DNA of 45,012 nucleotides from Balneolales bacterium (GTDB lineage Bacteria > Bacteroidota > Rhodothermia > Balneolales > Natronogracilivirgulaceae), in NCBI GenBank assembly GCA_007132495.1, contig SLOL01000016.1, forward strand, positions 1 to 45,012. Reading direction: 5' to 3'. The notes below the pieces were generated by a model. The model did no database searches and was not told the origin of the DNA. It worked only from the letters and a program-made list of their open reading frames with translations. Positions 1,255 through 38,522 of the stretch are shown in pieces; position 1 is the first letter of the stretch; each line of letters starts with the position of its first letter. Both the position numbers and the translations under genes were made by a program.

Positions 1255-1337
1255 CCGGATTCAGTGATGTTCTGTCGGCGGTCTGCGGGCTTGATTGAGA
1301 GATTCCGGTTTATCATCAGATCACATTCGGCTGCCGT

Positions 1338-1853: not shown

Positions 1854-1958
1854 ATGGTTTTACCGATGATGGTAAAACGGGATGGAATGATATCATATAT
1901 AAAATGAATATATTAAAGGAAATACTCTACTACCACCTGTAAACAAAACCATATGCAA
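1848..1958. repeat. 14-bp inverted repeat containing both divergent start codons
   Basis: TTGCATATGGTTTT (1848-1861) and AAAACCATATGCAA (1945-1958) are perfect reverse complements. Each contains the start ATG of a divergent gene: 1853 on minus for the cytochrome, 1953 on plus for the SGNH lipoprotein. Both genes therefore begin with the same leader and second codon. The left arm overlaps the 1857-1878 inverted repeat. Function is unknown. Confidence 0.6.
1857..1878. promoter_or_regulatory. 8-bp-arm inverted repeat, candidate operator
   Basis: GTTTTACC (1857-1864), six bases, then GGTAAAAC (1871-1878) form a perfect inverted repeat. It starts four bases upstream of the annotated cytochrome start, in the divergent promoter region shared with the SGNH esterase. 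The placement suits a repressor site, or a hairpin in the leader if transcription of the minus-strand gene starts further upstream. No regulator is identified. Confidence 0.4.
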
Positions 1959-3281: not shown

Positions 3282-3327
3282 ATTGTCCCAATACCCAGAC
3301 TACCCAAAACAAACCGGGAGATATCGT

Positions 3328-4368: not shown

Positions 4369-4490
4369 GGAGTTTCCAGTAAAACAGACGTGGACTAATC
4401 GTGTAAAATGCAGTGGTGATCCGGATGGAAAAGATCCCGGAAAGCAGGAACAAATCGGACCGACATGCAAATACGAAAGGCGAGTCAGTG

Positions 4491-5216
4491 ATGGCCAACC
4501 GTGATACCGAAGTCAGCTGGGGTGTGATTGGAGCAGGCGATGTCTGCCGGAAAAAAAGCGCCCCGGCCATGAACAAGATTCCCCGGTCGCGCATGGTTGC
4601 GGTCATGCGCCGCAATGGGGCAAAGGCGAGGGCCCGCACTTACCGGGAGTGCCGGGAAATGGTCACGGCTTGTGAGCAGGCCGGGATTCCCCTTTTTGTC
4701 GCCTATTACCGCCGCATGCTTCCCAACTACCGCAAGATCAAGGAACTGGTCGATAATGGCACGATCGGCCGGATACGCCATGTACAGATCCGCATGAACA
4801 AAATGTTGCGTCCGGAAACCGACACGGATCCGGGAAACTGGCGGGTGGATCCTGGTCAGGCCGGCGGCGGATATTTCTATGATCTTGGCTCACATCAGCT
4901 CGATTTTCTGGACTACCTGCTGGGCCCTGTCATGGAAGCGCGTGGGTTCTCCGCCAACCAGGCCGGTCTGTATAAAGCTGAAGATATGGTCACCGGATCG
5001 GAAGCAGACCTTGAATATGGTCCGGAAATGGATGGCCTGAAGACATTGCGGTTCCGGTTCGAAATGCCTGAACATATCCAGCAGCCGTTCATCGAGACCA
5101 TAGTGAGTCAGCTGCTCGGTGACAAAGCGGAAGATGGCCGAAGCATCCGTAGTCCGAGTACCGGGGTCACGGCAGCGCGAACCAACCGGGTTATGGAGCA
5201 GTTATGCAGCTCCTGA
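4491..5216 (+). pseudogene. Gfo/Idh/MocA-family oxidoreductase with large internal deletions
   Basis: The start reads as a normal NAD(P)-binding N-terminus (VSWGVIGAGDVCRKKSAPAM, then SRMVAVMRRNGAKARA). It jumps directly to ARTYRECREMVTACEQAG, which in relatives lies beyond the Rossmann fold. About 55-60 residues are missing, including the usual EKP motif of the active and cofactor site. A second shortening occurs around residues 185-205, where KAEDMVTGSEADLEYG runs into a truncated beta-sheet. The total is 241 residues against the family's usual 320-350. The frame stays open, so the deletions are in-frame or recent. A functional dehydrogenase is unlikely, though a shortened protein could be made. 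The ATG at 4491 follows a weak AAGGCGAG site; an upstream in-frame ATG at 4413 lacks family similarity. Confidence 0.7.
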
Positions 5217-10833: not shown

Positions 10834-11652
10834 TCATTCCTGTTCGTTGTCACGGTGTAAAATAGCATATCGAATCAGTTCATCAAACAACTGTCTTTGT
10901 GAAGGTACCTGAGGAAGGTATTCCGGGTGCCACTGTATTCCGACCATAAACGGATAAACCGGATTTTCAATTCCCTGCGCTACACCGTCAAGCTCCCTGG
11001 CCACTACCCGGATTCCGTCGCCGGGCCGCTTTACCGCCTGATTATGCAGACTGTTCACCCGGATGATTTCTTCGCCGATGATGTGATAGAGCCGGCTCTC
11101 TTTTTCCAGCCGAACGGCTTTCCGGGGATATATGGTCGTTATTTTAGCCCGTTCACGGTAGTAGGAGGCGAGATCCTGGTACAGTGTACCATTGTGAAAG
11201 ACATTGAGTAACTGTGCTCCGCGGCAGATACCCAGAACCGGGATCTGTCTGGAAACGGCATCCTGCAGAATCCGCCACTCCAGATCGTCGCGGGCCAGAT
11301 CCACTCCGATGGAACCGGCACTGAAAGCTTTTCTCAGCAGCCCGAAAAACGGGGCCAGCAGAAGGGTGATCCAGCGTTGTTTCCGTGGTTCGTTCCGGTC
11401 CGGCTCCGTACGTATATTCTTCAGGTCGGTGATCAGATCCTCATACCGGCCCGGATCGATATCGGCTCCGCCGCCCAGAATGAGAGCATGTGGAGCATCC
11501 GCAGGGGTCTTTCGCCGCACCTTTTCGAAAGTTGCCGGGGTTATCCGGACGGCTTTGCCGCCGCTTCGCCGCACGGCAAAACGGGTAGCCAGCCAGGCCG
11601 CCGTTCCACCTTTTTCCGGGCCTGATACCCAGACGACAGGTTTTTTTTGCAT
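10834..11652 (-). CDS. peptidase C26 / gamma-glutamyl-GABA hydrolase-like amidotransferase-fold enzyme
   Basis: 272-residue class-I glutamine-amidotransferase-fold hydrolase of the PuuD/peptidase C26 kind. The catalytic elbow is GICRGAQLLN with Cys143, and the His-Glu pair is in GIQWHPEYLP near residue 240. GGGADIDPGRY (about 60-70) is typical of this family. It hydrolyses gamma-glutamyl or similar isopeptide bonds. A stretch rich in basic and hydrophobic residues at about 90-115 (QRWITLLLAPFFGLLRKAF) is an insert relative to PuuD and may touch the membrane. It is downstream of the amidoligase gene on the same strand, separated by 196 bp that hold a 20-bp tandem array. This pairing is known from amidoligase gene neighbourhoods, so it may trim or recycle the ligase's product. 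Confidence 0.85.
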   Translation of the reverse strand: MQKKPVVWVSGPEKGGTAAWLATRFAVRRSGGKAVRITPATFEKVRRKTPADAPHALILGGGADIDPGRYEDLITDLKNIRTEPDRNEPRKQRWITLLLAPFFGLLRKAFSAGSIGVDLARDDLEWRILQDAVSRQIPVLGICRGAQLLNVFHNGTLYQDLASYYRERAKITTIYPRKAVRLEKESRLYHIIGEEIIRVNSLHNQAVKRPGDGIRVVARELDGVAQGIENPVYPFMVGIQWHPEYLPQVPSQRQLFDELIRYAILHRDNEQE

Positions 11653-11710
11653 TGTATATCACATTGTTGATCGAAAAGGCACGTTCTGCGGTTTCAATTG
11701 CAGAATCGCT

Positions 11711-11830
11711 GAATTTTCCAGTTGCCGCGTGAATTTTCCAGTTGCCGCGTGAAGTTTGCAGTTGACTGTGAAATTTGCGGCTGCCTTATGAAACTCTCAA
11801 CTGCCGTGTGAAGTTCTCAGTTGCTGTATG
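11711..11830. repeat. 20-bp tandem array, six units
   Basis: Units begin at 11711, 11731, 11751, 11770, 11790 and 11810. The first two are identical (gaattttccagttgccgcgt). The others diverge but keep GAA at the start and a G/CTTG/C-like centre; one unit is 19 bp. The array fills most of the gap between the amidoligase stop (11849) and the hydrolase start (11652) and would be transcribed with them. Twenty is not a multiple of three and no open frame covers it, so it is non-coding. Confidence 0.85.
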
Positions 11831-11848
11831 AAATTATCGGTGGTAAGA

Positions 11849-12895
11849 TTACTCCATGAACAGGGTCCGCATCTCCCGCATCCAGGTTTCGGTCCAGGTT
11901 TTAAAGGGGTGACGTTTCCGCTTGAGATAGAGTTGTTGCAGGTTTTTGATCTTTTCGCCGGATTCCGCCAATCGTTCCACCTCCACCCACACATTCCACT
12001 CCCTGGTAAAACTCCACTCCGGGTCGTCGATTGAGCTGTTGGGCAGCCGGTAGTGAAAGGCGGGACGCGGACGGATCAGCTCATCCGAAAGGCGCTTGCG
12101 AACCCGGTCTTCATCCAGCCATGAAAACAGGGGAAGCATGTCAAGCGGACGATTCCGGGTTGGGTTGTTATCCAGGTAATCATCGATCAGTCCGCCAATA
12201 TCGGGTTCATACAGGGGTTCGAGCACTTTTTCCACGTAGGGGGCTGGAAAGGGATCGATAAACGGGGTGATTTCGCGCATCATATCGATCTCATGGGAGA
12301 GACGAAGCCACTCATACAGCAGTAAAAAAGCCTGAAGATAGCGTAAAATGACCACGGGGTCGTCTGAAGGCGTTTCGGGATTGAGATGGAGTCCAAAGGC
12401 GTGGAACGGTGATGCAGAAGTGCCCTTTCCCTGCATCCGGTGGATGGCGATTCGAAGCTCTTCCAGATCCGCGATTTGATGAAAGGTAACCGGTGGAAAA
12501 GAGACTTCATACGGGACAAAAGGCTCCGCGGTGGATGCCAGCATCCGTTCTGCCGTCTTTTGCCACCGGGAATCAATTTCAATGCCGATCTCCTTTCCGA
12601 TGCTTCGGAAATAATCGGTTTTGGCCATTTTCTGGAGCAGGATCCAGTCCATTTCGATGGTGAAATCACCCAGCCGGGTATTCCTTACATACTTTTTATA
12701 ATCGCTTTCCGATTCTGTTTCGCCCCCGTAGCACATGCGTACCAGGGAGATGATCCGGTCGATGGTTAACCCGGAAAATTCAATTTCCAGGCCCATTTTT
12801 CTGGGTTTGCCGCTACGGTTTTCAAGCCTTGGCGGGAGAAGCACCATCCCGTGAGATTGCTTTTTTTGAAACATTCCGGATATTTTTTCACCCAT
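11849..12895 (-). CDS. amidoligase family protein (Amidoligase_2)
   Basis: 348-residue member of the glutamine-synthetase-like amidoligase family, ATP-dependent enzymes predicted to join a carboxylate to an amine in peptides or cell-surface molecules. Motifs in order are MGLEIEFSGL (residues 34-43, metal-binding Glu), GDFTIEMD (76-83), YEVSFPP (129-135, second metal/ATP region) and HAFGLHLNPE (165-174). A C-terminal helical part contains LFSWLDEDRVRKRL. The family is often encoded beside a class-I glutamine-amidotransferase-like hydrolase, as here. No peptide precursor gene was found nearby. Its product is unknown. It is divergent from lpdA with a 157-bp spacer. Confidence 0.85.
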   Translation of the reverse strand: MGEKISGMFQKKQSHGMVLLPPRLENRSGKPRKMGLEIEFSGLTIDRIISLVRMCYGGETESESDYKKYVRNTRLGDFTIEMDWILLQKMAKTDYFRSIGKEIGIEIDSRWQKTAERMLASTAEPFVPYEVSFPPVTFHQIADLEELRIAIHRMQGKGTSASPFHAFGLHLNPETPSDDPVVILRYLQAFLLLYEWLRLSHEIDMMREITPFIDPFPAPYVEKVLEPLYEPDIGGLIDDYLDNNPTRNRPLDMLPLFSWLDEDRVRKRLSDELIRPRPAFHYRLPNSSIDDPEWSFTREWNVWVEVERLAESGEKIKNLQQLYLKRKRHPFKTWTETWMREMRTLFME

Positions 12896-13052: not shown

Positions 13053-14474
13053 ATGGCGAAAGAATTTGATGTTTGTGTAATCGGCTCGGGTCCGGGCGGC
13101 TACGTGGCGGCTATCCGTGCCAGTCAACTTGGTTTGAAAACGGCCATTGTGGAAAAAAGAGATCTGGGAGGAGTCTGTCTGAACATCGGCTGTATTCCCA
13201 CCAAGGCGCTGCTCAAATCGGCTCAGGTAGCCGAATATCTGGAACATGCCGGAGACTACGGCTTTGAGGCGGGTGATGTAAAAACCGATTTTCCGAAGAT
13301 CATTAAGCGAAGCCGCCGTGCCGCTGACAAGATGAGCAAGGGCGTTCAGTTTCTCTTGAAGACCAACAAGATCGAGGTGCTCAAGGGTAAAGGGGTTTTT
13401 GCCTCCGAATCGGAACTGAAGGTTCTGGATGACAAAGAAAAGGAGACCGAACGGATCAAGGCTAAACATTTTCTGGTGGCAACCGGTGCCCGGGCGCGTG
13501 AATTGCCCAATCTGAAGTTCGATGACAAAACCGTGATCGACTACGAACGGGCGATGAAGCTGGAAAAACAGCCCAAACGTATGGTAATTGTCGGAGGCGG
13601 GGCCATCGGCATCGAGTTTGCCTACTTCTACCATTCGATAGGCACCGAAGTGACGGTTGTGGAGATGCAGAAGAATATTCTGCCGGTTGAGGATGCCGAA
13701 GTCAGCAAGGAGCTGGAGAAGCTCTACAAGAAAAAAGGCATGAACATTCTCACCGAAAGTACGGTTGAAAAGGTCGAAAAGAAGGGCCGGAAAGTGTCGG
13801 TTACGGTTAAAACAAAGAAGGGAGAAGAGAAAATCGAGACCGATGTGGTTCTGTCGGCGGTCGGAGTGGTCGGCAATGTAGAGGGGCTTGGCCTGGAAGA
13901 TATCGGCGTGAAAGTGGAAAATGGCGCCATTCAGGTCGATCGCACGACCTATCAGACCGATGTCAAGGGCATTTACGCCATCGGCGATGTGGCCGGTCCG
14001 CCATGGCTGGCGCATAAGGCATCCCATGAAGGATTGCGCTGCATAGAGCGGATAGCCGGACAGGATCCCCAGCCTATCAACTACAACAACATACCGGGCT
14101 GTACCTATTGTCAGCCGCAGGTGGCATCGGTCGGCATGACCGAAGTCCAGGCGAAGGAAGCCGGACATAAGATCAAGGTGGGTAAATTTCCCTTCCGGGC
14201 CAACGGAAAGGCGGTGGGTGCCGGTCAGACGGACGGCTTTGTGAAGGTGATCTTTGATGAAAAATACGGAGAATGGCTCGGCTGCCACATGATCGGGGCC
14301 GATGTCACCGATATGATCACCGAAGCGGTGGTGGCCCGTGACCTGGAGACGACCGGACACGAAATCATCCAGGCGGTCCATCCCCACCCGACACTCTCGG
14401 AAACCGTCATGGAGGCGGTAGCCGAAGCTTATGGCGAAGGAGTGCATCTGGGAACAAAACCCGGGAAAAAGTAG
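13053..14474 (+). CDS. lpdA: dihydrolipoyl dehydrogenase (E3)
   Basis: 473-residue flavoprotein that re-oxidises dihydrolipoamide with NAD+ in pyruvate, 2-oxoglutarate or branched-chain dehydrogenase complexes and the glycine cleavage system. The FAD site is VIGSGPGGYVAAI (9-21). The redox disulphide is Cys42/Cys47 in GGVCLNIGC. The NAD site is MVIVGGGAIGIEFA, and the second FAD segment is GIYAIGDVAG. The catalytic His-Glu dyad is in HPHPTLSETVMEA. Length and motif order are normal. It lies 24 bp upstream of the first CotH-like gene without a visible terminator. The lipoate-synthesis genes lipB and lipA in this window serve the same cofactor but are 27 kb away. Confidence 0.97.
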   Translation: MAKEFDVCVIGSGPGGYVAAIRASQLGLKTAIVEKRDLGGVCLNIGCIPTKALLKSAQVAEYLEHAGDYGFEAGDVKTDFPKIIKRSRRAADKMSKGVQFLLKTNKIEVLKGKGVFASESELKVLDDKEKETERIKAKHFLVATGARARELPNLKFDDKTVIDYERAMKLEKQPKRMVIVGGGAIGIEFAYFYHSIGTEVTVVEMQKNILPVEDAEVSKELEKLYKKKGMNILTESTVEKVEKKGRKVSVTVKTKKGEEKIETDVVLSAVGVVGNVEGLGLEDIGVKVENGAIQVDRTTYQTDVKGIYAIGDVAGPPWLAHKASHEGLRCIERIAGQDPQPINYNNIPGCTYCQPQVASVGMTEVQAKEAGHKIKVGKFPFRANGKAVGAGQTDGFVKVIFDEKYGEWLGCHMIGADVTDMITEAVVARDLETTGHEIIQAVHPHPTLSETVMEAVAEAYGEGVHLGTKPGKK

Positions 14475-14498: not shown

Positions 14499-17066
14499 AT
14501 GGCACATTGCTGCCGTTTTCTGATATTATTACTCCTGCCTGCAGCAGTTTATGCCGAACCTCTTTTACCACCCGGATTTTCGCACTCTGCAGGCACTTTT
14601 ACGGAGCCGTTTCAACTGGAATTGAGTTTCGGGGAGGGAGAAACCGTTTATTATACAACGGACGGTGAAACGCCCACGAAAACCTCTCTTCCGTATAAAG
14701 AAGATACCGGGATTGAAATATCGGGCTCGATGATGATCCGGGCCCGCGCCTATCATACCGAAGGGGACTCCAGCGCATCGGTGACCCGTATCTATAATCA
14801 GTTGAGTTATAATATTGCTGAATTTGACTCCAACCTTCCACTGGTTATAGTCAATGAGCACAATGAGACCATGCTTTCACAATGTTCGGATATCCCGCCG
14901 ACATGGGGTACCAACTGTGACAGAACCATTGTATATATATCCATCATAGATGTTGATGACAGTGGCAGAGCCCGTCTGTTAACGGATGACTTGCATGTTC
15001 ATGCCCGATCAGAATCCAATTACCGGGGCAACAGCTCGCTGACGTTTCCCAAACGGCAGTTCGGCATCCGCCTTATCGATGAAGAAGGCGAAAATCGCAA
15101 TGAACCGATTCTGGGTATGCCTTCGGAAAATAACTGGATACTGCATAACCCTTATGATGACAAGACTTTGATGCGCAACGCAGTGGCGTTTCAGTTGAGC
15201 AGAGATACGGGGACCTATTCACCCCGGACCCGCTTTGTTGAGCTTTTTCTGCATGACGGAAATGGACCGGTCACCCGGGATCATTACCATGGCGTATACA
15301 TGCTTGTGGAGCGCATCAAATGGGATAATAACCGCGTGGATGTGGCCAAACTGACTCCCGATGACAGCCAGGAACCCGGGATAACCGGCGGGTATATACT
15401 GAACCACGACACTTATGAAACGCATATCCGGGGTTCCCGTCGTAATACCCGTTTCCGGCTGGTCAGGCCCCAGGACGAAGATATTACCAGTGTTCAGCGC
15501 AACTGGTTATCCAACCATATAGGTGAACTTGAGGACGCCCTTTTTGGTGATAACTTTACCGATCCCGAAGTGGGATATGCTGCCTGGCTGGAACCGGAGT
15601 CGTTTATCGATCATCACCTGATCACGGAAGGATTGAAAGAAGTTGACGGATTCCGCAAAAGCACCTATCTGTATAAAGATCGCGGATCACGCATCAAGAT
15701 GGGGCCCTTGTGGGACTGGAATCTCAGCATGGGAAATACCAGTGTCGGGAACCTGAATTTTGGGTGTGAGCCGACACACTGGTACTATGAGGACTTTTTG
15801 GCGCATCCGGATAATTCGCCTGAAAGGTATCTCAATGGCTGGTACACCCGCCTGTTTGAAGATCCGGATTTCCGGGAGCGGTACCGGGAGCGCTGGTGGG
15901 TGCTTCGCCGTGGACCGCTCGCCACCGATCATGTGGTGAACGTGATGCGCGAGTACGCCGAAAAGCTGGACGAGGCGCAGCAGCGCAACTATGAACGCTG
16001 GCCTGTTATGGGAGAATGGGTGATGTTTAATTGCGAAGTTTTTGACACCTATCAGGAGGAGGTGGAGTATATGATTGACTGGACCCGGCAGCGTCTCCAG
16101 TGGGTTGACTACCGGCTGGGTCCTCCTCCGGCGAACACGACCGGAACCGATCTCCGCCATTTTTGGTATTTCGGAGATACTATGCCGAATAACACCCCTC
16201 TGGAGAAACTCGAGGCCCATTATTCATTGCTGGAAAAAGCCCGTCTGCATTATCACTCGGCACTTGAGGGCTATCCTTTTAATGAGGAGCATCCCCAATG
16301 GCGAAAGGCATCGATGGAGCGGCGAAACCGTCCCACAGAACTGAATTATCACGCTGTTGGAAACCACGGCCGGCCCTTTGATGAGAATGCGATGCGGGCC
16401 CTGCAGGTCAGGAAACCGTTAGAAGGCAGCGGGGGAGAAAGCAAGATGATCTTTGACCTGCCGACGACCGGGGTTGAGGATGTCGTATTCCGGTTTGCCG
16501 CTATGGATGAGGGAGCGGCCGATGAATTGATTATCGATTACGCCGCATCTGTGGATGGAGCCGGAGAGCCCGAATGGACGACCGAAGGGCTCCAGGATCG
16601 TGAATATTCGTTAAGCGATGAATACCGGCTTTTTGAACTCGATTTCAGTCCGTTGCCCGAGGTGAACAACAATTCCGATTTCAAAATCCGAATCCGTTTC
16701 GAGGGTGAAGATATGTCAGCCGATGACGGTGGACGTGTAACATTCAACAACTTCAGCCTGACCTCCGAACCGGATGAAGACGCAGAGCGGGGAGCAATAC
16801 CGGAGACTTACAAACTGAAGCAGAATCATCCCAACCCCTTCAATTCAGAGACGGTGATCAGCTACCAGTTACCGGAGGACCGGTTTGTTGTGCTTGAAGT
16901 ATTTGATGTACTCGGACGAAGAGTTGATACACTGGTCAATGAACGGTTGGATGCGGGTGTGCACCAGGTGAAATTTGACGCTGCCGCACTGGCCAGCGGA
17001 ATCTATGTCTACCGTCTTCAGGTCGGAGATATGAGCTCATCCCGTATGATGACGTATATCAAATGA
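14499..17066 (+). CDS. T9SS-exported CotH-like protein, paralogue A
   Basis: 855 residues. A signal peptide (about 1-19, ending VYA) is followed by a chitobiase/hexosaminidase C-terminal-type beta-sandwich (about 24-105: FSHSAGTFTEPFQLELSF, VYYTTDGETPT). A CotH domain (about 115-560) has SNYRGNSSLTFPKRQFGIRL, GVYMLVERIKWDNNRVD and WDWN at 405-408. A conserved block of unknown fold follows (about 565-770), with YHSALEGYPF and FRFAAMDEGAADE, then a T9SS type A sorting domain starting QNHPNPFN (about 775-855). CotH proteins of spore formers are secretory-type kinases; here the domain is predicted to act at or outside the outer membrane. The gene belongs to a four-gene cluster and is a close paralogue of the genes at 20354 and 23046. 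Kinase activity is inferred from the family. Confidence 0.88.
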   Translation: MAHCCRFLILLLLPAAVYAEPLLPPGFSHSAGTFTEPFQLELSFGEGETVYYTTDGETPTKTSLPYKEDTGIEISGSMMIRARAYHTEGDSSASVTRIYNQLSYNIAEFDSNLPLVIVNEHNETMLSQCSDIPPTWGTNCDRTIVYISIIDVDDSGRARLLTDDLHVHARSESNYRGNSSLTFPKRQFGIRLIDEEGENRNEPILGMPSENNWILHNPYDDKTLMRNAVAFQLSRDTGTYSPRTRFVELFLHDGNGPVTRDHYHGVYMLVERIKWDNNRVDVAKLTPDDSQEPGITGGYILNHDTYETHIRGSRRNTRFRLVRPQDEDITSVQRNWLSNHIGELEDALFGDNFTDPEVGYAAWLEPESFIDHHLITEGLKEVDGFRKSTYLYKDRGSRIKMGPLWDWNLSMGNTSVGNLNFGCEPTHWYYEDFLAHPDNSPERYLNGWYTRLFEDPDFRERYRERWWVLRRGPLATDHVVNVMREYAEKLDEAQQRNYERWPVMGEWVMFNCEVFDTYQEEVEYMIDWTRQRLQWVDYRLGPPPANTTGTDLRHFWYFGDTMPNNTPLEKLEAHYSLLEKARLHYHSALEGYPFNEEHPQWRKASMERRNRPTELNYHAVGNHGRPFDENAMRALQVRKPLEGSGGESKMIFDLPTTGVEDVVFRFAAMDEGAADELIIDYAASVDGAGEPEWTTEGLQDREYSLSDEYRLFELDFSPLPEVNNNSDFKIRIRFEGEDMSADDGGRVTFNNFSLTSEPDEDAERGAIPETYKLKQNHPNPFNSETVISYQLPEDRFVVLEVFDVLGRRVDTLVNERLDAGVHQVKFDAAALASGIYVYRLQVGDMSSSRMMTYIK

Positions 17067-17160
17067 ATCAACCTGTCGGGCCGGTTCTTTCCTTTTAGTA
17101 AAGTATCCGGTAAAATGATATTGTCTTTATGTAAATTTCACCGGTGACTTCAACTAAACC

Positions 17161-20100
17161 ATGTTGTTATTATCCGTCGTTTTTGTACGCCAGATTCACT
17201 TCCTCCAGGTCATTGTGACTTTGATGCTGATACCTTCTGCCATTCGGTCATCACCGGAAGTCGTATCACAGATCGCATCTTATGAACCTCAGGTCGTGGC
17301 TAACGAACATCAAAATGTGACCAATGAAGAAAAAGTTGCGGCAAATACACCGCCGTTCCTGATTAACGAATATCAAACCACGACTAATGAACCCCAGGTC
17401 GTGATAAACGAAATCCAGGCCTCCAACAATACGACGATCACTGACGAAGATGGCCATTATGAGGACTGGATCGAACTTTACAACCCCGGTTCGACAGGAA
17501 CCGCCGATCTGAGCCATTACGGACTGTCCGATGACCCGGAACGTCCGTTCCGGTGGGTGATTCCGGAGGGTGTCACTCTGTCACCCGGCGAATTCCTGCT
17601 CATCCGGGCTTCGGGCAAGGATCGGCGCGATCCTGCAGGACCTCTGCACACCAACTTCGCCATTGCCCGTGAGGGAGAGGAGGTTCTGTTGACCCATCCG
17701 ACGCTGCCCGAAGACCGGCATCTCATCGATCATGTGCCTCCTGTGCATATCCCGTCTGACCGCTCTTACGGGCGACTGCCCGACGGTTCCGACGATTGGG
17801 TCTTTTTCGACCGGCCCACGCCCGGAACCACCAATAGCAGCTCAACCGGATTCGGAAAAATTCTTGATCCGCCCGAATTTTCAGCGGACGACGGTTTCCA
17901 TACGGGACCGCTGACTCTTGAAATCACAACCCGCCACGAAGGTGCACAAATCCGCTACACGCTGGACGGCAGCGAGCCGGGTCCCGATGCACCGCTCTAC
18001 CACGGTCCGATATCTATCACCGACCGCTCCGAAGAACTCAATGATCTTTCGGAAATTACGGAAATCTCCCACCAGTACGCTCCGGCGGGCACCCCCGACA
18101 GCAAGGTGTACAAGGGAACGGTGGTCCGCGCCCGTGTCTTCCGCGACGGTGACCTGCCGGGTCCGGCCCGTACCGGAACCTGGTTTATTTATGAGGAAGG
18201 AAACAACCGGTATTCTCTTCCGGTAATAACCATCACCACCGACCGAAACCATCTGTTCGATTTCGATGAAGGGATCTACGTGCTGGGTCGGGTTCACCAG
18301 GAGTGGCGCGATAAAGGCGGTACCACTTTCAACGGTGGAACACCGGCCAACTACAACCGGCAAGGGCGCGACTGGGAACGACCGGCACATCTGGCATTCT
18401 ACGAAACCGACGGGAGCAAGACGATTGATCAGGACATCGGCATCCGCATCCACGGGGGATGGGGGCGCGCCTTTCCACAGAAAAGTTTCCGGCTGTATTC
18501 GCGCAGTGACTATGGGGAAAGCCGGTTCCGTTACCAAATGTTTCCTCATCTGGAACTGGATGATTTCAACCGGCTGATTCTGCGTAATTCAGGTCAGGAT
18601 GTAACCTCTACCATGTTCCGTGATGTCTATATTCAGGAGAGTGTCCGGCATATGCGGTTCGATGTACAGCACGCCCGTCCGGCTATTGTATTTCTGAACG
18701 GGGAATACTGGGGAATCTACAATGTCCGGCAGCGCTATGATCGTCATTACCTGGAGACTCATTACGGTCTGGGACCCGGCGAAATCGATCTGCTCACGCG
18801 TTCGGCCAATAATCCCAAAGAAGGTGACAACACCGACTATCTGGAACTGCGTGACGGTTTGCTGGGCGCCGACACCACGGATATGAACCATCCGGCCAAC
18901 TTCGAAAAAGCCCGGCATCAGATCGACATCGACAATCTGATCGACTATTTCATCGCCCAGATCCATTCGGCCAATACCGACTGGCCGCACAATAATATCG
19001 ACTTCTGGCGGGCGGCCCACGGCGAATACCATCCGGAGGCTGACGTTCCCGAACAAGATGGCCGCTGGCGCTGGCTGATGTATGATACGGACTTCGGTTT
19101 CGGATGGTTTTCCAGGGTTACCGAAAACACATTGGACCGTGCCACGGGAAGCGGACGTTATGCCTGGTCCAACACGCTGTTTGACGGATTGATGTCCGGA
19201 CAACCGTTCCGCGACCGGTTTTACAACCGTTATGCGGATCAGCTCAATACCGCGTTTCAACCCGGCCACATGTCGGCGCTGCTCGACTCGCTCCAGGCGA
19301 TCTATGCTCCGGAAATCGATGAACATATTCACCGGCGTGGCGATGCTGAGTTCAGGTTAAGCGGATCAAACCGTTATCCGATGAGTTACAATGAATGGGT
19401 CGACGATGTTGAGGAGATGAGACAATTTGCCGTTAAGCGGCCTGGGCATCAGTGGGACCATCTGATGCAGTTCGGCAGTCGCGATACGTTGGCGCTTACG
19501 CTCGATGTCGCGGATCCGGCACAAGGATATATCCGGGTCAATACCGTCGATATTCGGCCGGGTGCCGTTGGGGTGGACAAGGATCCCTGGCCGTGGCAGG
19601 GGTTTTACTTCCGGGATCTGCCGGTAACCGTGACCGCCTGGGCCCGTCCGGGCTATGAGTTTGATAGCTGGGAGAAACAGAAACTGTCTCCGCAAAGAAC
19701 CGAAAATTTTTCCGACACCAGGGATTCCTCTAACACCGGAAATTCTTCTGAAACAAGGAATTCTTCCGGCACCGAAAATCTCCCGGACACAAAAGATTCT
19801 TCACAAACCGAATACCTCTCTGAAATAAAGGTCGAACTGCCCATGACCGAACGGGTACGGCTTACCGCTTTGTTTCGCAAAGCCACCGATGCCGACTCCA
19901 CACCGGAACCGGTTCCGGCATCGTTTTCCCTGGATCAGAACTATCCCAACCCCTTCAATACAGGTACCCGGATTACCTTTGAGCTGCCGGAGGAATCTCC
20001 GGTACAACTTGATGTGTTTGATGCGCTGGGCAGGAAGGTGTCGGTACTGGTGGATGATGTGCTCACAGAGGGCCGGCATACGGTTATGTTCGACGGCAGC

Positions 20101-20181
20101 GGACTGGCCAGCGGTGTTTACATATACCGCCTGCAGGCCGGCTCTTTCCGACGGTCAAGGACTATGCTGCTGCTTAAATAG
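17161..20181 (+). CDS. T9SS-exported lamin-tail / CotH protein with tandem-repeat expansions
   Basis: 1006 residues. A hydrophobic N-terminus (signal-like, about 1-27) leads into a 7-residue repeat (41-89, opening NE in most units). A lamin-tail domain (about 80-215) starts VVINEIQASN. Then come a chitobiase C-terminal-type domain (about 230-345), a CotH domain (about 350-765) with IRIHGGWGRAFPQKSFRLY and MYDTDFGFG (Asp642, Asp644), an InlB-like beta-sandwich (WARPGYEFDSWE, VRLTALF) split by an 18-bp repeat (848-889), and a T9SS type A domain from QNYPNPFN. It differs from its three neighbours in having two Asp in the metal-site motif and in its LTD domain. Probably a cell-surface protein; the exact enzymatic role is unknown. 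Confidence 0.87.
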   Translation: MLLLSVVFVRQIHFLQVIVTLMLIPSAIRSSPEVVSQIASYEPQVVANEHQNVTNEEKVAANTPPFLINEYQTTTNEPQVVINEIQASNNTTITDEDGHYEDWIELYNPGSTGTADLSHYGLSDDPERPFRWVIPEGVTLSPGEFLLIRASGKDRRDPAGPLHTNFAIAREGEEVLLTHPTLPEDRHLIDHVPPVHIPSDRSYGRLPDGSDDWVFFDRPTPGTTNSSSTGFGKILDPPEFSADDGFHTGPLTLEITTRHEGAQIRYTLDGSEPGPDAPLYHGPISITDRSEELNDLSEITEISHQYAPAGTPDSKVYKGTVVRARVFRDGDLPGPARTGTWFIYEEGNNRYSLPVITITTDRNHLFDFDEGIYVLGRVHQEWRDKGGTTFNGGTPANYNRQGRDWERPAHLAFYETDGSKTIDQDIGIRIHGGWGRAFPQKSFRLYSRSDYGESRFRYQMFPHLELDDFNRLILRNSGQDVTSTMFRDVYIQESVRHMRFDVQHARPAIVFLNGEYWGIYNVRQRYDRHYLETHYGLGPGEIDLLTRSANNPKEGDNTDYLELRDGLLGADTTDMNHPANFEKARHQIDIDNLIDYFIAQIHSANTDWPHNNIDFWRAAHGEYHPEADVPEQDGRWRWLMYDTDFGFGWFSRVTENTLDRATGSGRYAWSNTLFDGLMSGQPFRDRFYNRYADQLNTAFQPGHMSALLDSLQAIYAPEIDEHIHRRGDAEFRLSGSNRYPMSYNEWVDDVEEMRQFAVKRPGHQWDHLMQFGSRDTLALTLDVADPAQGYIRVNTVDIRPGAVGVDKDPWPWQGFYFRDLPVTVTAWARPGYEFDSWEKQKLSPQRTENFSDTRDSSNTGNSSETRNSSGTENLPDTKDSSQTEYLSEIKVELPMTERVRLTALFRKATDADSTPEPVPASFSLDQNYPNPFNTGTRITFELPEESPVQLDVFDALGRKVSVLVDDVLTEGRHTVMFDGSGLASGVYIYRLQAGSFRRSRTMLLLK
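17281..17427 (+). repeat. in-frame 21-bp tandem repeat in the LTD/CotH gene
   Basis: Seven 21-bp units give heptapeptides such as YEPQVVA, NEHQNVT, NEYQTTT, NEPQVVI and NEIQASN. Units at 17281 and 17386 share GAACC-CAGGTCGTG almost exactly, showing duplication rather than chance. The last unit is the first strand of the lamin-tail domain, so the linker seems to have grown by copying the domain's own edge. Confidence 0.8.
19702..19827 (+). repeat. in-frame 18-bp tandem repeat in the LTD/CotH gene
   Basis: Seven 18-bp units (starts 19702, 19720, 19738, 19756, 19774, 19792, 19810) encode Ser/Thr/Asn/Asp-rich hexapeptides such as ENFSDT, RDSSNT, RNSSGT and KDSSQT. There is a secondary 36-bp alternation. 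The array interrupts an InlB-like domain between WEKQ and KVELPMTERVRLTALF, so it is probably an exposed, flexible loop. Confidence 0.85.
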
Positions 20182-20353
20182 GAAATAATTCCTGATAGTG
20201 AATGAGCGTACTGCGGCATAAAGAAAAAACATTATATCGCGGATCTCGTTTGATAAATTCCAAGGCTGTTACTAACATGGAAACGCGTTTATTCCGTTTT
20301 TCAGGGACCCGAGACTGGTTTTGCTATATTATTCGCTTTATTATCCATCCCGC

Positions 20354-22882
20354 ATGAAATCATTTGTCTTTTTATCTTCTTTATTTGCAGGATTGTTGTT
20401 TGCGTCATCGATTTCAGCCGAACCATTGCCACCACCGGAGTTTTCCCATCCGGCAGGAACGTATGATCAACCGTTTGAGCTGGAAATCATGGCAGAAGAG
20501 GGAGTTGCCATCTACTATACCACCAATGGAAGAGCTCCCACACCGTCTTCCGAAGAGTATAAGCAGGGAGAGCCGATTCCCATTTCCGGATCGGTAATGA
20601 TTCGTGCGCGGGCATATGATGAGGAGGGTATTGCCGGAGAGACCGTTACAAAGATTTACAGTCAGCTTGCACGCAGTGTGGTGGACTTTGACTCAGACCT
20701 GCCCCTGGTTATCGTTCATCAGTTTGATCAGGCCATGCATCCCGAAGGGCATTCCAGGACACCGGCCTATTTTACGGTGATCGATACCGATGAGGACGGT
20801 CGCGCACGCCTGCTCTCTGACGACCTGCACCTGCACAGCCGCACCGAATCCAACTACCGGGGATCCAGCTCACTACAATTTCCCAAGAAACAGTTTGGGG
20901 TTCGGCTGATCGACGAACAGAGTGAAAATCGTAACGAACCGATTTTGGGAATGCCGTCTGAAAACAACTGGATCATGCATGCCCCTTATGATGATAAAAC
21001 GTTGATGCGTAATGCGGTTGCCTACCAGCTGAGCGAAGATATGGGGCGCTATGCTCCACGCACCCGTTTTGTTGAGCTTTTTCTGCATGAGGGGGACGGT
21101 CCGGTCAGTGAGACCCATTATCACGGAGTCTATATGCTGGTGGAACGTATCAAATGGGATAACAACCGGGTGGATATCGCCAAGTTGACGCCGGAGGATA
21201 ATTCAGAGCCGGAGATCACCGGCGGGTACATCATCAACTACGACCGGGATGAACATATCTGGAGCACCGAGCGAAGGACCGGCTTTGCCCTGGTGCGGCC
21301 GCAGGATTGGGATATCACACGGGAACAGCGCAACTGGATATCCGGTTACCTCGGTGATTTGGAGTCGGCGCTGTTCGGACCCGATTTTCGGGATCCCGAG
21401 GAAGGATATGCGGCGTATCTGGAACCGGAGTCCTTTATTGATCATCATTTAATCACCGAGGCTCTGAAGGAGATAGACGGCTACAGGCTGAGCACCTATT
21501 TGCACAAGGATCGGGAAGACCGGCTGGTGATGGGCCCGGTGTGGGACTATAACATCAGTCTTGGTAACGGTGATTACCTGCAGGCCTGGCAACCCCACGG
21601 TTGGTACTATACCCAAATCAGTGAAGAAGACTATCTTAATGGATGGTACAGGCGTATGTTCGAGGATCCGGAGTTTGAGGAGCGATACCGTGAACGCTGG
21701 TGGGAACTGCGTCAGGGACCGTTTGCAACCGAACATATTGTGAACATGATCCGTGACTATGCCGACAAGCTGGATGAGGCGCAGCAACGGAATTTCGAGC
21801 GCTGGCCGATTCTCGGCCATTATGTCTGGCCGAACCACTTCATCGGCGACACATACGAGGAAGAAGTCGAATACATGATCGACTGGGTGGAACGACGCAT
21901 GCGATGGATCGACTCCCGAATGGGTGATCCACCCGATGATCTCCCTGAGAAACGTCTTGCTTATTACTGGGTTTTTGATGAAACACTGCCCAATAACACC
22001 CCGTTTGAGTCTTTGGAAGCCGACTATTCGCTGCTGAACAAGGCATCTCTTCAATTTCATTCGGCGCTTGAGGGTTATCCATTCGATGAAGAGCACCCCG
22101 ACTGGAGAAAAGCGTCTATGGAGCGGCGAAACCGGCCCATAGAGCTGAACTATCGTGAAAAAGGGAACCACAGCCGGCCGTTTGACCACGACGCGATGCG
22201 CGCTTTACAGGTGCGCCAGCCATTCACCGGCGACGGAGGTGAAAACACCCTCGTTTTTGATCTTCCGACTGCCGGTATGGGAAATGTGGTGTTCCGGTTT
22301 GCCGCCATGGACGAGGGGGCGGCCGATGAATTGCTAATCGATTACGCCGCGTCTGTGGATGAAGCCGGAGAGCCCGAATGGACCACCGACGGTCTTTCCT
22401 CGCTGCGTCATCCGCTCAGTTTTGAATATCAACTTTATGAACTTGACTTCAGTGATGTATCTGAGGTTGACAGTAATCCGGAATTCCGGATCCGTATCCG
22501 GTTCGACGGAGAGGACCTGTCGGCAGATGATGGAAATCGCGTGAGCTTCAACAATTTCAGTCTGGATTCAGGCACAGAAGCCGCCGACACGACCGGCAGC
22601 AGCGAAGGAGAGCAAGACTATAACTTCCGGCTGGAGCAGAATTATCCCAATCCGTTCAATGAGAGTACGGTTATCAATTATCAGCTTTCGGAGAGTAGAA
22701 ACGTACTGATTGAGGTCTATGACGTGCTCGGTCGCAGAGTGGCAACCCTTGTTGATGAACCGGTTTCAGCCGGAGAACATCAGGTGCATTTTGATGCAGA
22801 AGGACTGGCAAGTGGTTTGTACGTCTACAAGCTGCAAGCCGGAGAAAAGCACGAATCACGTACGATGTCTCTGATTAAATAG
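20354..22882 (+). CDS. T9SS-exported CotH-like protein, paralogue B
   Basis: 842 residues from the ATG at 20354, chosen because it starts a clean signal peptide (MKSFVFLSSLFAGLLFASS, cleavage after ISA). A TTG 33 bp upstream would add eleven residues. The domain order matches paralogue A: chitobiase C-terminal-type domain (about 22-100), CotH domain with SNYRGSSSLQFPKKQFGVRL and WDYN at 397-400, conserved block with FHSALEGYPFDEEHPDWRKA and FAAMDEGAADELLIDYAASV, and a T9SS type A domain from QNYPNPFNESTV. It lacks the repeats of the gene upstream. It shares a 59-bp identical stretch with paralogue C. Role as for paralogue A: a predicted secreted kinase-fold protein acting at the cell surface. 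Confidence 0.88.
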   Translation: MKSFVFLSSLFAGLLFASSISAEPLPPPEFSHPAGTYDQPFELEIMAEEGVAIYYTTNGRAPTPSSEEYKQGEPIPISGSVMIRARAYDEEGIAGETVTKIYSQLARSVVDFDSDLPLVIVHQFDQAMHPEGHSRTPAYFTVIDTDEDGRARLLSDDLHLHSRTESNYRGSSSLQFPKKQFGVRLIDEQSENRNEPILGMPSENNWIMHAPYDDKTLMRNAVAYQLSEDMGRYAPRTRFVELFLHEGDGPVSETHYHGVYMLVERIKWDNNRVDIAKLTPEDNSEPEITGGYIINYDRDEHIWSTERRTGFALVRPQDWDITREQRNWISGYLGDLESALFGPDFRDPEEGYAAYLEPESFIDHHLITEALKEIDGYRLSTYLHKDREDRLVMGPVWDYNISLGNGDYLQAWQPHGWYYTQISEEDYLNGWYRRMFEDPEFEERYRERWWELRQGPFATEHIVNMIRDYADKLDEAQQRNFERWPILGHYVWPNHFIGDTYEEEVEYMIDWVERRMRWIDSRMGDPPDDLPEKRLAYYWVFDETLPNNTPFESLEADYSLLNKASLQFHSALEGYPFDEEHPDWRKASMERRNRPIELNYREKGNHSRPFDHDAMRALQVRQPFTGDGGENTLVFDLPTAGMGNVVFRFAAMDEGAADELLIDYAASVDEAGEPEWTTDGLSSLRHPLSFEYQLYELDFSDVSEVDSNPEFRIRIRFDGEDLSADDGNRVSFNNFSLDSGTEAADTTGSSEGEQDYNFRLEQNYPNPFNESTVINYQLSESRNVLIEVYDVLGRRVATLVDEPVSAGEHQVHFDAEGLASGLYVYKLQAGEKHESRTMSLIK

Positions 22883-23045
22883 CCGCCTTATATAACTGTA
22901 AAAGGCATTTTCTCAAAAAAAAACATTATTTCACGACTGTTGAGCGTTATATTTACATAGTCTCGAATATGCAGAATCACCCTGGTTCCGGATGTTCAAG
23001 GAGGGGGTGCCTTATTGGTAATTGATATACCGGAACGGTTCATTC

Positions 23046-25649
23046 ATGAAAGTATTTGTCCGATTTCTCCGTCAGCTGAGCCTCCTGGTGCTTGTTGTTA
23101 TATCTTCAGCCGCCATCGTGTCCGGGAGTACCGACGCGTATGGAAAGACTGCTTCAGCAGGTACGTCATTGGCATCCGACCCGCCAGCGGCTCCCGTTTT
23201 TTCCCATTCCGCCGGTACATATGAACAGGCTTTCGACCTGGAGATAACCGCTGAGGAGGGGGCTGCGATATACTATACCACCAATGGAAGAAATCCTTCA
23301 CGGTTCACCGAAACATACCAGGGTCCGATACCGGTATCGGGATCGATGCTGATCCGTGCGCGGGCTTATGATGAAGAGGGCCGGGCCGGCGAAATCACAA
23401 CCAGAGTGTATAGTCAGCTTGATCGCAATGTGAAGGACTTCGACTCGAATTTGCCCCTGGTGATTGTCCATCAGTTCGATGATCCAATGCATCCCGGAGG
23501 TAACATTCGGAGTACGGTCTACTTTTCGGTCATCGATACCAAAGAAGACGGACGTGCCCGGCTGCTGACCGACGATCTGCATCTGCACAGCCGGTCGGAG
23601 TCCAATTACCGGGGATCCAGCTCACTCAGCTTCCCCAAAAAACAGTTCGGCGTACGCTTGATCGATGACCGGGGTGAAAATCGCAACGAATCTATTCTGG
23701 GAATGCCGGCGGAGAACAACTGGATCATGCACGCACCCTGGGATGACCGGACCCTGATCCGGAATGCGGTTGCCTACCGACTCAGTGAGGATATGGGCCG
23801 CTATGCTCCGCGTACCCGGTTTGTGGAGCTTTTCCTGCATGAAGGTGACGGGCCGGTGACCAGGGATCACTATCACGGGGTCTATATGCTGGTGGAACGG
23901 ATCAAATGGGATAACAACCGCGTGAATATCGCCAAACTGACCCCGGAGGATGATTCCGAGCCGGAAATCACCGGCGGATACATCATTAACTACGACCGGG
24001 ACGTCCATTTCCGCAGTACGCACTCTAAAAATACCGGTTTCGCGCTGGTTCGTCCGCAACACGAGGATATCACCCCGGAACAGCGCAGCTGGATTTCCGG
24101 TTATATCGGCGATCTTGAGACGGCGCTCTTCGGCCACAATTTCAGGGATTCCCGGGACGGATATGCCGCCTGGATGGATCCGGAATCGTTTATCGATCAC
24201 CATCTTATCACCGAAGCTCTCAAAGAGATGGACGGCTATCGGCTCAGCACTTTCATGTATAAAGATCGCGGCGGGCGGCTGGTGATGGGACCGCTCTGGG
24301 ATTATAACCTGAGTATAGGAAATCATGACCCGCGAGAGGGATGGGGTGGAGATTCACCCACTGGATGGTACTACACGAATCTATGGGAGGGAGCGTATGT
24401 CAACGGGTGGTATACACGGCTTTTTCAGGATCCGGATTTCAAGAAGCGATACCATGAACGCTGGTGGGAGCTGCGCCAGGGCCCCTTCGCCACCGATCAT
24501 GTGGTGAATATGATCAATGATTATGTGGAAAAGCTGGACGAAGCGCGCAAACGCAATTTTGAGCGATGGCCGATTATCGGCGAGGATGTGTGGAAATACA
24601 GCCGTCCGGGTTTGCCCACTTATGAGGATGAAATCAGGTTTATCATCAACTTTATTGAAGATCGTTTTGAATGGATCGATTCTCAGATACCGGCCCCCGA
24701 CCATCTGCCGCAGACACAGTTGCGCTATTTCTGGTATTTCGGCGAAGAACTTGCCAATAACACACCGTTTGAAGAACTGGAAGCAGGCTACGCACTAATG
24801 GACCAAGCCCGAATCCGCTTCCATTCGGCGCTGGAGGGCTACCCGTTTGATGATGAGCATCCCGATTGGAGAAAAGCGTCGTTGGAGCGCCGCAACCGTC
24901 CCACCGACATCAACTACCGGCCCGTCGGCAATCAGGGCCGCCCGTATGACATCAACACCATGCGGGCACTGCAGGTTTGCCAGCCGTTCACCGGCGGCGG
25001 TGGGGATAATACACTGGTCTTCCATATGCCGACCACCGGTATGGAGGGGGTCGTTATCCGTTTTGCCGCCATGGACGAGGGGGCGGCCGATGAATTGCTA
25101 ATCGATTACGCCGCGTCTGTAGATGGAACCGGAGAGCCCGAATGGACCGGCAACGAGTTGCCGTCTCTGCGGCATTCGCTGAGCTTTGAGTACCAGCTGT
25201 ATGAGATTGACTTCAGTGAAGTGGAAGATGTCAACGACAACCCGGACTTCCGGATGCGAATCCGCTTCGACGGAGAGGATATGTCGGCTGATGAAGGCAA
25301 CCGGGTTACATTCAATAATTTCAGTCTGGAAGCCGGCGTCGCTTCCGCCGACACGTCCGGCAACGGGGGGGAAACAGAGCGCAGCCATTCCTTCCGGCTG
25401 GAGCAAAACTATCCCAATCCGTTCAATCCGGAGACCAGGATCACCTACTCGCTGGAGCGGCAAAGCAATGTGAAACTAACGGTGTATAATGCAATGGGAC
25501 AGCGGGTGCGTGTATTGGTGGATGACTGGCAGAAAGGCGGTGAATATACCTATATTTTTGATGCATCGGACCTGGCCAGCGGAGTGTATATCTATGAACT
25601 TCGTACCGGAAACAACCGAATCAGCCGAAAGATGACATTCGTCAAGTGA
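23046..25649 (+). CDS. T9SS-exported CotH-like protein, paralogue C
   Basis: 867 residues from ATG 23046. An in-frame TTG at 23022 is closer to the purine-rich GGAGGGGG at 23000-23007 and could be the real start, adding eight residues. The signal peptide (MKVFVRFLRQLSLLVLVVIS) is followed by a 30-residue Ser/Ala-rich linker, then the same layout as paralogue B: chitobiase-type domain, CotH domain with SNYRGSSSLSFPKKQFGVRL and WDYN at 418-421, and the conserved block. Its T9SS domain (QNYPNPFNPETRITYSLERQ) differs clearly from those of A and B, suggesting domain replacement. It ends the cluster; the next gene is convergent. Confidence 0.88.
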   Translation: MKVFVRFLRQLSLLVLVVISSAAIVSGSTDAYGKTASAGTSLASDPPAAPVFSHSAGTYEQAFDLEITAEEGAAIYYTTNGRNPSRFTETYQGPIPVSGSMLIRARAYDEEGRAGEITTRVYSQLDRNVKDFDSNLPLVIVHQFDDPMHPGGNIRSTVYFSVIDTKEDGRARLLTDDLHLHSRSESNYRGSSSLSFPKKQFGVRLIDDRGENRNESILGMPAENNWIMHAPWDDRTLIRNAVAYRLSEDMGRYAPRTRFVELFLHEGDGPVTRDHYHGVYMLVERIKWDNNRVNIAKLTPEDDSEPEITGGYIINYDRDVHFRSTHSKNTGFALVRPQHEDITPEQRSWISGYIGDLETALFGHNFRDSRDGYAAWMDPESFIDHHLITEALKEMDGYRLSTFMYKDRGGRLVMGPLWDYNLSIGNHDPREGWGGDSPTGWYYTNLWEGAYVNGWYTRLFQDPDFKKRYHERWWELRQGPFATDHVVNMINDYVEKLDEARKRNFERWPIIGEDVWKYSRPGLPTYEDEIRFIINFIEDRFEWIDSQIPAPDHLPQTQLRYFWYFGEELANNTPFEELEAGYALMDQARIRFHSALEGYPFDDEHPDWRKASLERRNRPTDINYRPVGNQGRPYDINTMRALQVCQPFTGGGGDNTLVFHMPTTGMEGVVIRFAAMDEGAADELLIDYAASVDGTGEPEWTGNELPSLRHSLSFEYQLYEIDFSEVEDVNDNPDFRMRIRFDGEDMSADEGNRVTFNNFSLEAGVASADTSGNGGETERSHSFRLEQNYPNPFNPETRITYSLERQSNVKLTVYNAMGQRVRVLVDDWQKGGEYTYIFDASDLASGVYIYELRTGNNRISRKMTFVK

Positions 25650-25784: not shown

Positions 25785-26846
25785 TTACCGCTTCTGACTT
25801 GGAGATGTACCCTGACTCGGGTCATGTGCAATTCTCGGCGGAAGGAAACCCTGGGGATAATCGGTGACATACTCCTCTCCGAAAAGCCGGTTGTGCACCA
25901 CGGTGTTGCGGTGAACTTCCCAGTCGAATTTTCCTCTTTTCCGCAGGTAAAGCGTGATAAAGGAGGAGGTCATGACGATAAAGGTAGAGTAGAGGATCGC
26001 GAGCCAAAGCATCTGGTTCTGGATCGACGGTTCGGGAAAGCTCAGCAAGATAATGGCAAAGGATACGGGCCCGTTCTGAATACCGGTCTCCAGGGAGATG
26101 GCCCGCTGAAAGAGTGGCTGCACCCCGAACAGACGTGAAACCCAGTAGCCGAACAGGAAACCGAGCAATCCGACGGAAATGGCCGAGAAGTATACCTGCC
26201 AGGGGGTCTCCAGAAAGAGATTGCTGTGACGGATGAAGGCGGTTCCGAGAAGGTAGAGGATCACTATGATAGCTACAAATCCGGCGGTGTCTTCTGCTGT
26301 TTTGGCCCATCCCGGAGAATATCGGCGCAGTACCATCCCTCCGGCTACCGGCACCAGCACCAACACCAGAGACGAGATGATATTCAAGGTCGGAATCACA
26401 AACTCGGCGCTGGAGTCTGCTCCGGCCGCCACCATGGCCTCGGTAATCTGCCGGGTAAACCCGGTAGTGTATAGCTCGAGCAGGATCGGCATCATAAGAA
26501 GCGCCAGAAGTGTGGATGCGGTGGTCATGGAGATACTGAGGGCGACCGAACCCCGGGCAAAATAGGCAAACATGTTTGAAGTGGTTCCACCCGGCAGGCA
26601 CCCGATGAGGATCAGGGCGATGGCAAATGCGGGAGGAAGGTTGAGCACTACTGCCAAACCGAGAGCAATAAGCGGCATTACGCCGAATTGGGACAGAAAA
26701 CCGATGAGTACCCCGCGCGGACGCCGGGCCACGGCCTTGAAATCATCGACGGTCAGACTACCCCCCATTCCGAACATGATCACAAAGATCATCAGAGCCA
26801 GCAGAATCTGGTCGATAGGGTACAGAAGCTGGGTTTGAATATCCAT
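25785..26846 (-). CDS. bile acid:sodium symporter (BASS) family transporter
   Basis: 353-residue inner-membrane protein with about nine hydrophobic segments. Family features include the N-terminal region FGMGGSLTVDDFKAVARRPR, the Gly/Pro-rich ILIGCLPGGTTSNMFAYFARGSVALSI region split across two helices, and VSFAIILLSFPE with the preceding ISLETGIQNGP, which matches the E-x-G-x-Q-N sodium-site motif of BASS carriers. The last 45 residues are hydrophilic and cytoplasmic. It takes up organic anions with Na+; the substrate here is unknown and need not be a bile acid. It starts 4 bp after the stop of the acyl-CoA ligase and is probably in one operon with it, so a carboxylic acid that is then activated to a CoA ester is plausible. 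Confidence 0.87.
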   Translation of the reverse strand: MDIQTQLLYPIDQILLALMIFVIMFGMGGSLTVDDFKAVARRPRGVLIGFLSQFGVMPLIALGLAVVLNLPPAFAIALILIGCLPGGTTSNMFAYFARGSVALSISMTTASTLLALLMMPILLELYTTGFTRQITEAMVAAGADSSAEFVIPTLNIISSLVLVLVPVAGGMVLRRYSPGWAKTAEDTAGFVAIIVILYLLGTAFIRHSNLFLETPWQVYFSAISVGLLGFLFGYWVSRLFGVQPLFQRAISLETGIQNGPVSFAIILLSFPEPSIQNQMLWLAILYSTFIVMTSSFITLYLRKRGKFDWEVHRNTVVHNRLFGEEYVTDYPQGFLPPRIAHDPSQGTSPSQKR

Positions 26847-36366: not shown

Positions 36367-36440
36367 ACCTCAGACATATACACTGAACCTCAGGAATGTG
36401 CACTGAACCTTAGGAATGTGCACTGAACCTCAGGAATGTT
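36361..36440. repeat. 20-bp tandem array across the 3' ends of two convergent genes
   Basis: Four exact-length units at 36361, 36381, 36401 and 36421. The consensus is cactgaacctcaggaatgtg; units 2 and 3 differ at one base. The ATP-grasp stop codon (36364-36366) lies in the first unit, and the htpG stop codon (36430-36432, minus strand) lies in the last. Parts of both genes' final codons are therefore built from the repeat. Confidence 0.95.
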
Positions 36441-38397: not shown

Positions 38398-38437
38398 TAA
38401 TGGGTTTGTCGGTTATCTAATGGGTTTGTCGGTTATC
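38398..38437. repeat. 20-bp direct repeat, two perfect units
   Basis: taatgggtttgtcggttatc at 38398-38417 is repeated exactly at 38418-38437. It sits between the htpG start (38376, minus) and the small membrane ORF, whose stop codon (38436-38438) it partly overlaps. It would be in the htpG leader if the two are co-transcribed. Confidence 0.95.
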
Positions 38438-38522
38438 AGAGTATTTTGACCAATACATTGGTGATAGCTGCCAATACAAGCGTAATTCCTATTAACACCA
38501 GAATATGTTTAAATTGTTTCAT
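38436..38522 (-). CDS. 28-residue single-pass membrane peptide, translationally coupled
   Basis: ATG at 38522 overlaps the TGA of the upstream serine hydrolase (ATGA, four bases), so its translation is probably coupled. The peptide begins MKQFKH, continues with a hydrophobic helix ILVLIGITLVLAAI, and ends TNVLVKIL before TGA at 38438-38436. It has basic residues on both sides of one predicted transmembrane helix. It is too short for family assignment. Candidates are a small membrane protein modulating the secreted hydrolases or simply a remnant. The coupling argues against a random frame, but there is no homology evidence. It would be the last gene of a three-gene operon, upstream of htpG. 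Confidence 0.55.
   Translation of the reverse strand: MKQFKHILVLIGITLVLAAITNVLVKIL

Follow-up and report, generated by a model that had tools for sequence, protein, structure and literature searches.

A four-gene array encoding CotH-domain proteins with T9SS sorting domains in a Balneolales genome, and the carbohydrate-locus context of related genes

Introduction

Bacillus CotH works prior to release from the mother cell, with ATP available. It belongs to the CotH kinase family (PF08757), which includes the spore proteins of B. subtilis and B. cereus (PDB entries 5jd9 and 5jda). The B. subtilis CotH mutants D228Q and D251A are inactive, and the family is distantly related to Fam20C (PMC7821199). 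CotH modules also occur outside the cell in polysaccharide-degrading machinery. Cellulosomal examples are known from clostridia (Cthe_0239 and CseP), the former with an LTD-LTD-Fn3-CotH architecture (PMC6083626), and from Neocallimastigomycete fungi; a structural or regulatory role has been discussed for cellulosomal CotH (PMC12484212).

In the phylum of the bacterium described here, proteins that join a CotH kinase fold to the sorting domain of the type IX secretion system (T9SS) are common, and what secreted CotH domains do is a question common to cellulosomes and to T9SS cargo across the phylum. A literature search for CotH together with T9SS or with polysaccharide utilization loci (PULs) returned nothing useful, and CotH was not found in it as a recognized PUL component. 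Here, four consecutive CotH genes of a Balneolales genome are described; what is added to the known picture is the carbohydrate-locus context of their relatives and a class-wide Ser at the kinase Asn171-type position. Our tentative reading is that the proteins are CotH modules anchored at the surface and associated with glycan, and that they are probably kinases of nearby surface proteins. Cellulosomal CotH would be the nearest functional parallel.

Results

The window is the whole stretch of DNA that was analysed, 45,012 nucleotides of contig SLOL01000016.1. In agreement with an earlier note made from the letters alone, each of four neighbouring ORFs (14499-25649, all + strand) combines a Pfam CotH domain with a chitobiase-type domain and a T9SS sorting domain; CHB_HEX_C_1 was found in all four. 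The genes lie in a slot between lpdA and an SBF-family symporter gene that is conserved in relatives:

13053-14474, + strand: lpdA (dihydrolipoyl dehydrogenase), left edge of the conserved slot
14499-17066, + strand: P0001, 855 aa; putative signal peptide, CHB_HEX_C/Fn3-assoc 31-99, CotH type I 175-536, block, T9SS sorting domain 778-846
17161-20181, + strand: P0002, 1006 aa; N-terminus with INE-type repeat, Lamin Tail Domain (LTD) 74-179, CHB_HEX_C 245-288, CotH type II 428-761, Ser/Thr/Asn-rich spacer, T9SS sorting domain 928-1000; no block
20321-22882, + strand: P0003, 853 aa; CHB_HEX_C 44-113, CotH type I 179-530, block 548-752, sorting domain 775-847
23022-25649, + strand: P0004, 875 aa; CHB_HEX_C 64-130, CotH type I 196-552, block, sorting domain 797-871
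25785-26846, - strand: SBF-family Na+ symporter, right edge of the conserved slot

P0003 and P0004 are listed from TTG codons; with ATG at 20354 and 23046 as candidate starts instead, their putative signal peptides look better. Operon and promoter signals inside the array were not above chance. Adjoining lpdA, a gene pair on the - strand (10834-12895) encodes Amidoligase_2 and peptidase C26/GATase proteins, with apparent synteny in loci L050 and L078.

Over their full lengths, P0001 and P0004 are 63-69% identical to P0003. These three and one copy on contig C211 of the same genome make up the block-bearing CotH class, termed type I, which is a Bacteroidota-wide CotH subclass. P0002 is of a separate class, the common LTD-CotH class (type II): it carries an N-terminal LTD, lacks the block, and its CotH domain is only ~15% identical to that of P0001. 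Its order of LTD, beta domain and CotH resembles that of cellulosomal Cthe_0239; attachment in the window proteins would be by a T9SS sorting domain and not by a dockerin, and type I adds a block resembling carbohydrate-binding modules (CBMs) and adhesins. Within P0002, the Ser/Thr/Asn-rich spacer that precedes the sorting domain is encoded by an in-frame 36-bp minisatellite (19699-19779, 2.2 copies). A Ser-rich repeat was also seen within the CotH region at L005:3396-5693.

For export, P0001 to P0004 were scored against the sorting-domain model TIGR04183, giving 27.5, 37.9, 38.4 and 43.0 bits, respectively (cut-off 23); against the Pfam model PF18962, the P0001 sorting domain reached 26.9 bits with a cut-off of 27. 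The genome encodes the T9SS translocon SprA (1563.6 bits) and the sortase PorU (1065.7 bits), and hydrophobic N-termini ending in AxA-like sites could be recognized by eye. The sorting domains and the T9SS genes support the T9SS export predicted in the earlier note. The proteins share the C-terminal sorting domain of type A cargo and differ from such ordinary cargo in nothing notable. T9SS-tailed CotH is in fact ordinary in the phylum, since ten CotH genes were found on six contigs of this genome and type I CotH in 72 of 395 phylum genomes (E<=1e-40), with a sorting domain in most of those inspected. The nearest named relatives are Balneolales metagenome-assembled genomes, mostly with 'CSSed' isolate names, which we take to denote soda-lake sediments.

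Assignment to the CotH family is far beyond chance: scores against PF08757 were 185.5, 166.5, 192.7 and 196.7 bits for P0001 to P0004 (cut-off 23.8), and the matches span the profile from position 1 or 3 to 319 or 322. Whole P0002 and P0003 found no direct match among PDB sequences; the CotH profile finds B. cereus CotH, 5jd9. In an AlphaFold2 model of P0003 (pLDDT 81), the top PDB fold matches were 5jda, B. cereus CotH with Mg/AMP (E 3.9e-11, TM 0.76 by target), and 5jd9, so that the kinase-like fold proposed earlier is supported by structure prediction. For type I, the model argues for a nucleotide pocket at the level of the fold only. Three codons of P0003 were located by alignment:

21476-21478, + strand: Asp386, equivalent to the catalytic Asp228 of B. 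subtilis CotH
21491-21493, + strand: Ser391, five positions after Asp386; Asn in Bacillus-type CotH and type II
21545-21547, + strand: Asp409, equivalent to the catalytic Asp251 of B. subtilis CotH

A lack of conserved catalytic residues, which would have counted against the earlier note, is not what is seen. Both catalytic aspartates are kept in all four window proteins and are invariant in every sequence aligned. When type I, type II and an Alicyclobacillus sequence (the Bacillus-type CotH reference) were aligned together, eight columns were invariant, and these two aspartates were among them; their spacing of 23 residues is common to B. cereus CotH and type I. Both Asp residues, Glu275 and Lys396 were invariant in 29 type I proteins, the majority of them from the order, and in 23-24 further ones, mostly from outside it and 38-60% identical to P0003. 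The glycine-rich RG..PKK segment of the family is also shared. In it, a candidate ATP-binding Lys is always present, with the first Lys of PKK fixed in type I and the second in type II.

Five residues past Asp228, the classes differ. This position is Ser in every type I protein aligned (29 + 23) and Asn in P0002 and in CotH, where it matches the kinase Asn171-type residue by position and is possibly, but not necessarily, essential. Type I usually has an Asn two residues past the D251 equivalent, as a further difference from spore CotH. With Ser in place of the Asn171-type residue, the type I metal site may differ from that of CotH.

This invariant Ser counts against a kinase and forms part of the case for the main rival reading, in which the CotH fold is kept for binding or as a scaffold and the proteins are surface adhesins or glycan-binding proteins that transfer no phosphate. 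The Asn171-type residue is lost throughout type I, all remaining domains are adhesin- or CBM-like, extracellular ATP is not expected, and a structural role has also been discussed for cellulosomal CotH (PMC12484212). Against this, D386, D409, Ser391 and Lys396 do not vary at all across the phylum; a protein that neither catalyses nor binds nucleotide or metal could hardly account for such constancy, and we consider a pseudokinase or structural module possible but rather unlikely.

The shared fold and catalytic aspartates could also be read as in the spore, with a kinase that patterns a surface layer by phosphorylating Ser-rich structural proteins, as B. subtilis CotH does on CotB and CotG. The Ser/Thr/Asn-rich repeat spacer of P0002 would then be a possible self-substrate. 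However, no gene with CotB/CotG-like Ser/Lys/Arg repeats was recognized among the annotated neighbours, and Bacillus CotH acts at a stage and place where ATP is at hand. Such a patterning role seems improbable. The window proteins differ from spore CotH in being predicted secreted cell-surface cargo with a T9SS tail and beta accessory domains, with no spore coat.

The block of about 200 residues that the earlier note had placed before the sorting domain is real (residues ~556-757 in P0001 and ~548-752 in P0003), and its positions are as follows:

16164-16769, + strand: block equivalent in P0001
21962-22576, + strand: block in P0003, CBM/cleaved-adhesin-like beta-sandwich, model pLDDT 94.5
24732-25355, + strand: block equivalent in P0004

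Searched by sequence, the block had no Pfam model and no PDB relative. As modelled, it is a well-defined beta-sandwich domain, and its best fold neighbours were the cleaved-adhesin domains K1-K3 of the gingipain Kgp and CBM4, CBM22, CBM27 and CBM29, to none of which sequence similarity was detectable. These matches had E values of 4e-6 to 1e-3 with TM scores of only 0.35-0.54, so the likeness is one of kind and not proof of binding. The block thus appears to be a sugar-binding-like beta-sandwich of CBM/adhesin type, for which weak fold similarity suggests glycan binding.

A search of other genomes, as the earlier note had proposed, found the block in 34 of 98 relatives, where it follows type I or type II CotH, stands alone, or is paired without CotH. 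The block is a mobile accessory domain, and the idea that it is unique to these genes was discarded. The earlier note had called it unusual; it is unannotated, is spread across the order and also occurs in proteins that lack CotH. Among the 395 phylum genomes, the full-length block is almost confined to this order, with genome G387 in addition; the N-terminal half has nearly the same restriction, and the C-terminal half is found phylum-wide in adhesin-like proteins. One block protein without CotH (L054:3638-5233, + strand) is a 532-aa T9SS protein with two degenerate block copies, encoded between bipA and a sucrose-phosphate-synthase-like gene.

Recent tandem expansion was examined as the origin of the array and was ruled out by the tree, an AU test and synteny. 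A tree constrained to monophyly of P0001, P0003 and P0004 was rejected (p-AU 9.3e-5; 1.6e-4 with the C211 copy added). P0001 pairs with L043 (support 100/100), P0003 falls near L064, L037 and L036, and P0004 groups weakly with genes of GH16/SusCD loci. In relatives, the lpdA-SBF slot has one type I CotH gene, either by itself (L050) or with a beta-helix T9SS protein (L078), and single type I genes adjoin or lie near the SBF gene in L036, L038 and L045. The array gathers old paralogues of separate lineages whose nearest kin are in other genera; P0003 is likely the resident gene of the slot. The three genes are close paralogues by identity, and not by recent tandem origin. The dedicated four-gene system of the earlier note is unsupported, since relatives have only one CotH gene at this place.

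The earlier note had also suggested tandem diversification with antigenic-like surface variation, for which three related surface genes in tandem, with one of another class, would be a fitting arrangement. The copies, however, are old and of separate lineages with nearest kin in other genera, their monophyly is rejected, and the CotH domain is among their most conserved parts (66-75% identity between copies, vs. 45-67% for N-terminal and sorting domains). Neither the array nor its flanks showed donor cassettes, silent or fragmentary, and antigenic-like variation is accordingly regarded as extremely improbable.

Type I relatives recur in carbohydrate loci, a tendency that is weak outside the order. 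In five Balneolales genomes of two families, a type I CotH gene lies inside a Bacteroidota-type PUL, in the order GH16, type I CotH, GH16 and SusD, together with small T9SS proteins (L040, L042/L072, L052, L063 and L065). In L063, Pfam identifies a SusC-like TonB-plug protein; in the other GH16/SusD loci, a large gene stands at the matching position. Contig C211 of the present genome carries genes for LacI, MFS, type I CotH, type II CotH, GH2 and two T9SS proteins, one of them with a weak GH16-clan match. Elsewhere, the type I gene is flanked by two GH120 genes (L037), lies near ROK and phosphoglucomutase genes (L067) or adjoins an SSF symporter gene (L068); by eye, the neighbour in L069, L070 and L075 resembles that of L068.

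GH16 genes were nearby in 5-6 of 26 type I loci and in 0 of 20 type II loci (Fisher p about 0.03-0.06), a comparison with hand-counted denominators and several short contigs, in which the loci are not independent because the GH16/Sus context comes mainly from one tree branch. Beyond the order, a general rule of glycoside hydrolase neighbours was not found for type I, with scattered cases only (GH85, GH92, fucosidase and two GH16). Most type I loci show no GH16, and the window array has no SusC/SusD pair and sits between lpdA and the SBF symporter gene, outside any PUL; both observations count against the reading preferred here.

Fam20B is a glycan kinase that acts on xylose. By analogy, CotH might phosphorylate the sugars of a polysaccharide chain to which the block docks. 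The distant relationship of CotH to Fam20C (PMC7821199) and the combination of a CBM-like block with carbohydrate-locus context would fit; on the other side, the phosphate-donor problem is the same, and type I genes have no conserved neighbour that handles sugar phosphates. Phosphorylation of the glycan itself is thought quite improbable.

Discussion

The reading that we tentatively prefer, surface-anchored and glycan-associated CotH modules that are probably kinases of nearby surface proteins, draws on features computed here: the fold, the catalytic aspartates, the sorting domains, the T9SS genes, the block fold and the recurring carbohydrate-locus context. T9SS would export the four proteins to the outer surface, each showing a CotH kinase-fold domain beside accessory beta-domains. 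The latter would tether the protein at the cell surface, either to a glycan or to the apparatus that handles glycans. The CotH domain, which keeps both catalytic aspartates, would phosphorylate neighbouring surface proteins, for example glycan-binding or scaffold proteins. The CotH modules of cellulosomes, clostridial and fungal, would be a parallel. On physical grounds, the chief objection to a kinase is that no free ATP is expected outside the cell; the phosphate would come from ATP or another donor.

A narrower proposal, which we rate as unlikely, is that type I CotH-block proteins may be a T9SS-anchored phosphorylating component of polysaccharide utilization in Bacteroidota/Balneolota, a kinase that has an altered metal site, Ser replacing Asn, that perhaps uses a donor other than free ATP, and that modifies extracellular glycan-binding proteins or the glycan. 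The conserved association between type I CotH and GH16/SusCD loci provides concrete candidate partners (SusD, GH16 and T9SS glycan-binding proteins) and makes extracellular phosphorylation in glycan breakdown testable in a cultured relative.

Several further features were seen in passing. In this genome and two relatives, a gene resembling a VTC-type polyphosphate polymerase has a type II CotH gene nearby; these polymerase-like genes were identified by eye, with homologues by phmmer:

L004:8002-8769, - strand: VTC-type-like gene
L139:7397-8173, - strand: VTC-type-like gene
L143:6928-7710, - strand: VTC-type-like gene

Type I-like CotH domains also occur in phage proteins, as P0001, P0003 and P0004 match the phage family phrog_6813 (E about 1e-31 to 1e-33). 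Within the window, a row of genes on the + strand (31-5216) encodes glucuronyl-esterase-like, GDSL lipase (with a galactose-binding-like domain), Tle1-like phospholipase and Gfo/Idh/MocA proteins and is possibly a separate carbohydrate/ester locus. Short 20-bp tandem-repeat arrays, mostly intergenic, lie at 11710-11833, 36356-36439 and 38398-38437, and two tandem genes of the beta-lactamase family (serine hydrolases) are found at 38519-41442 on the - strand.
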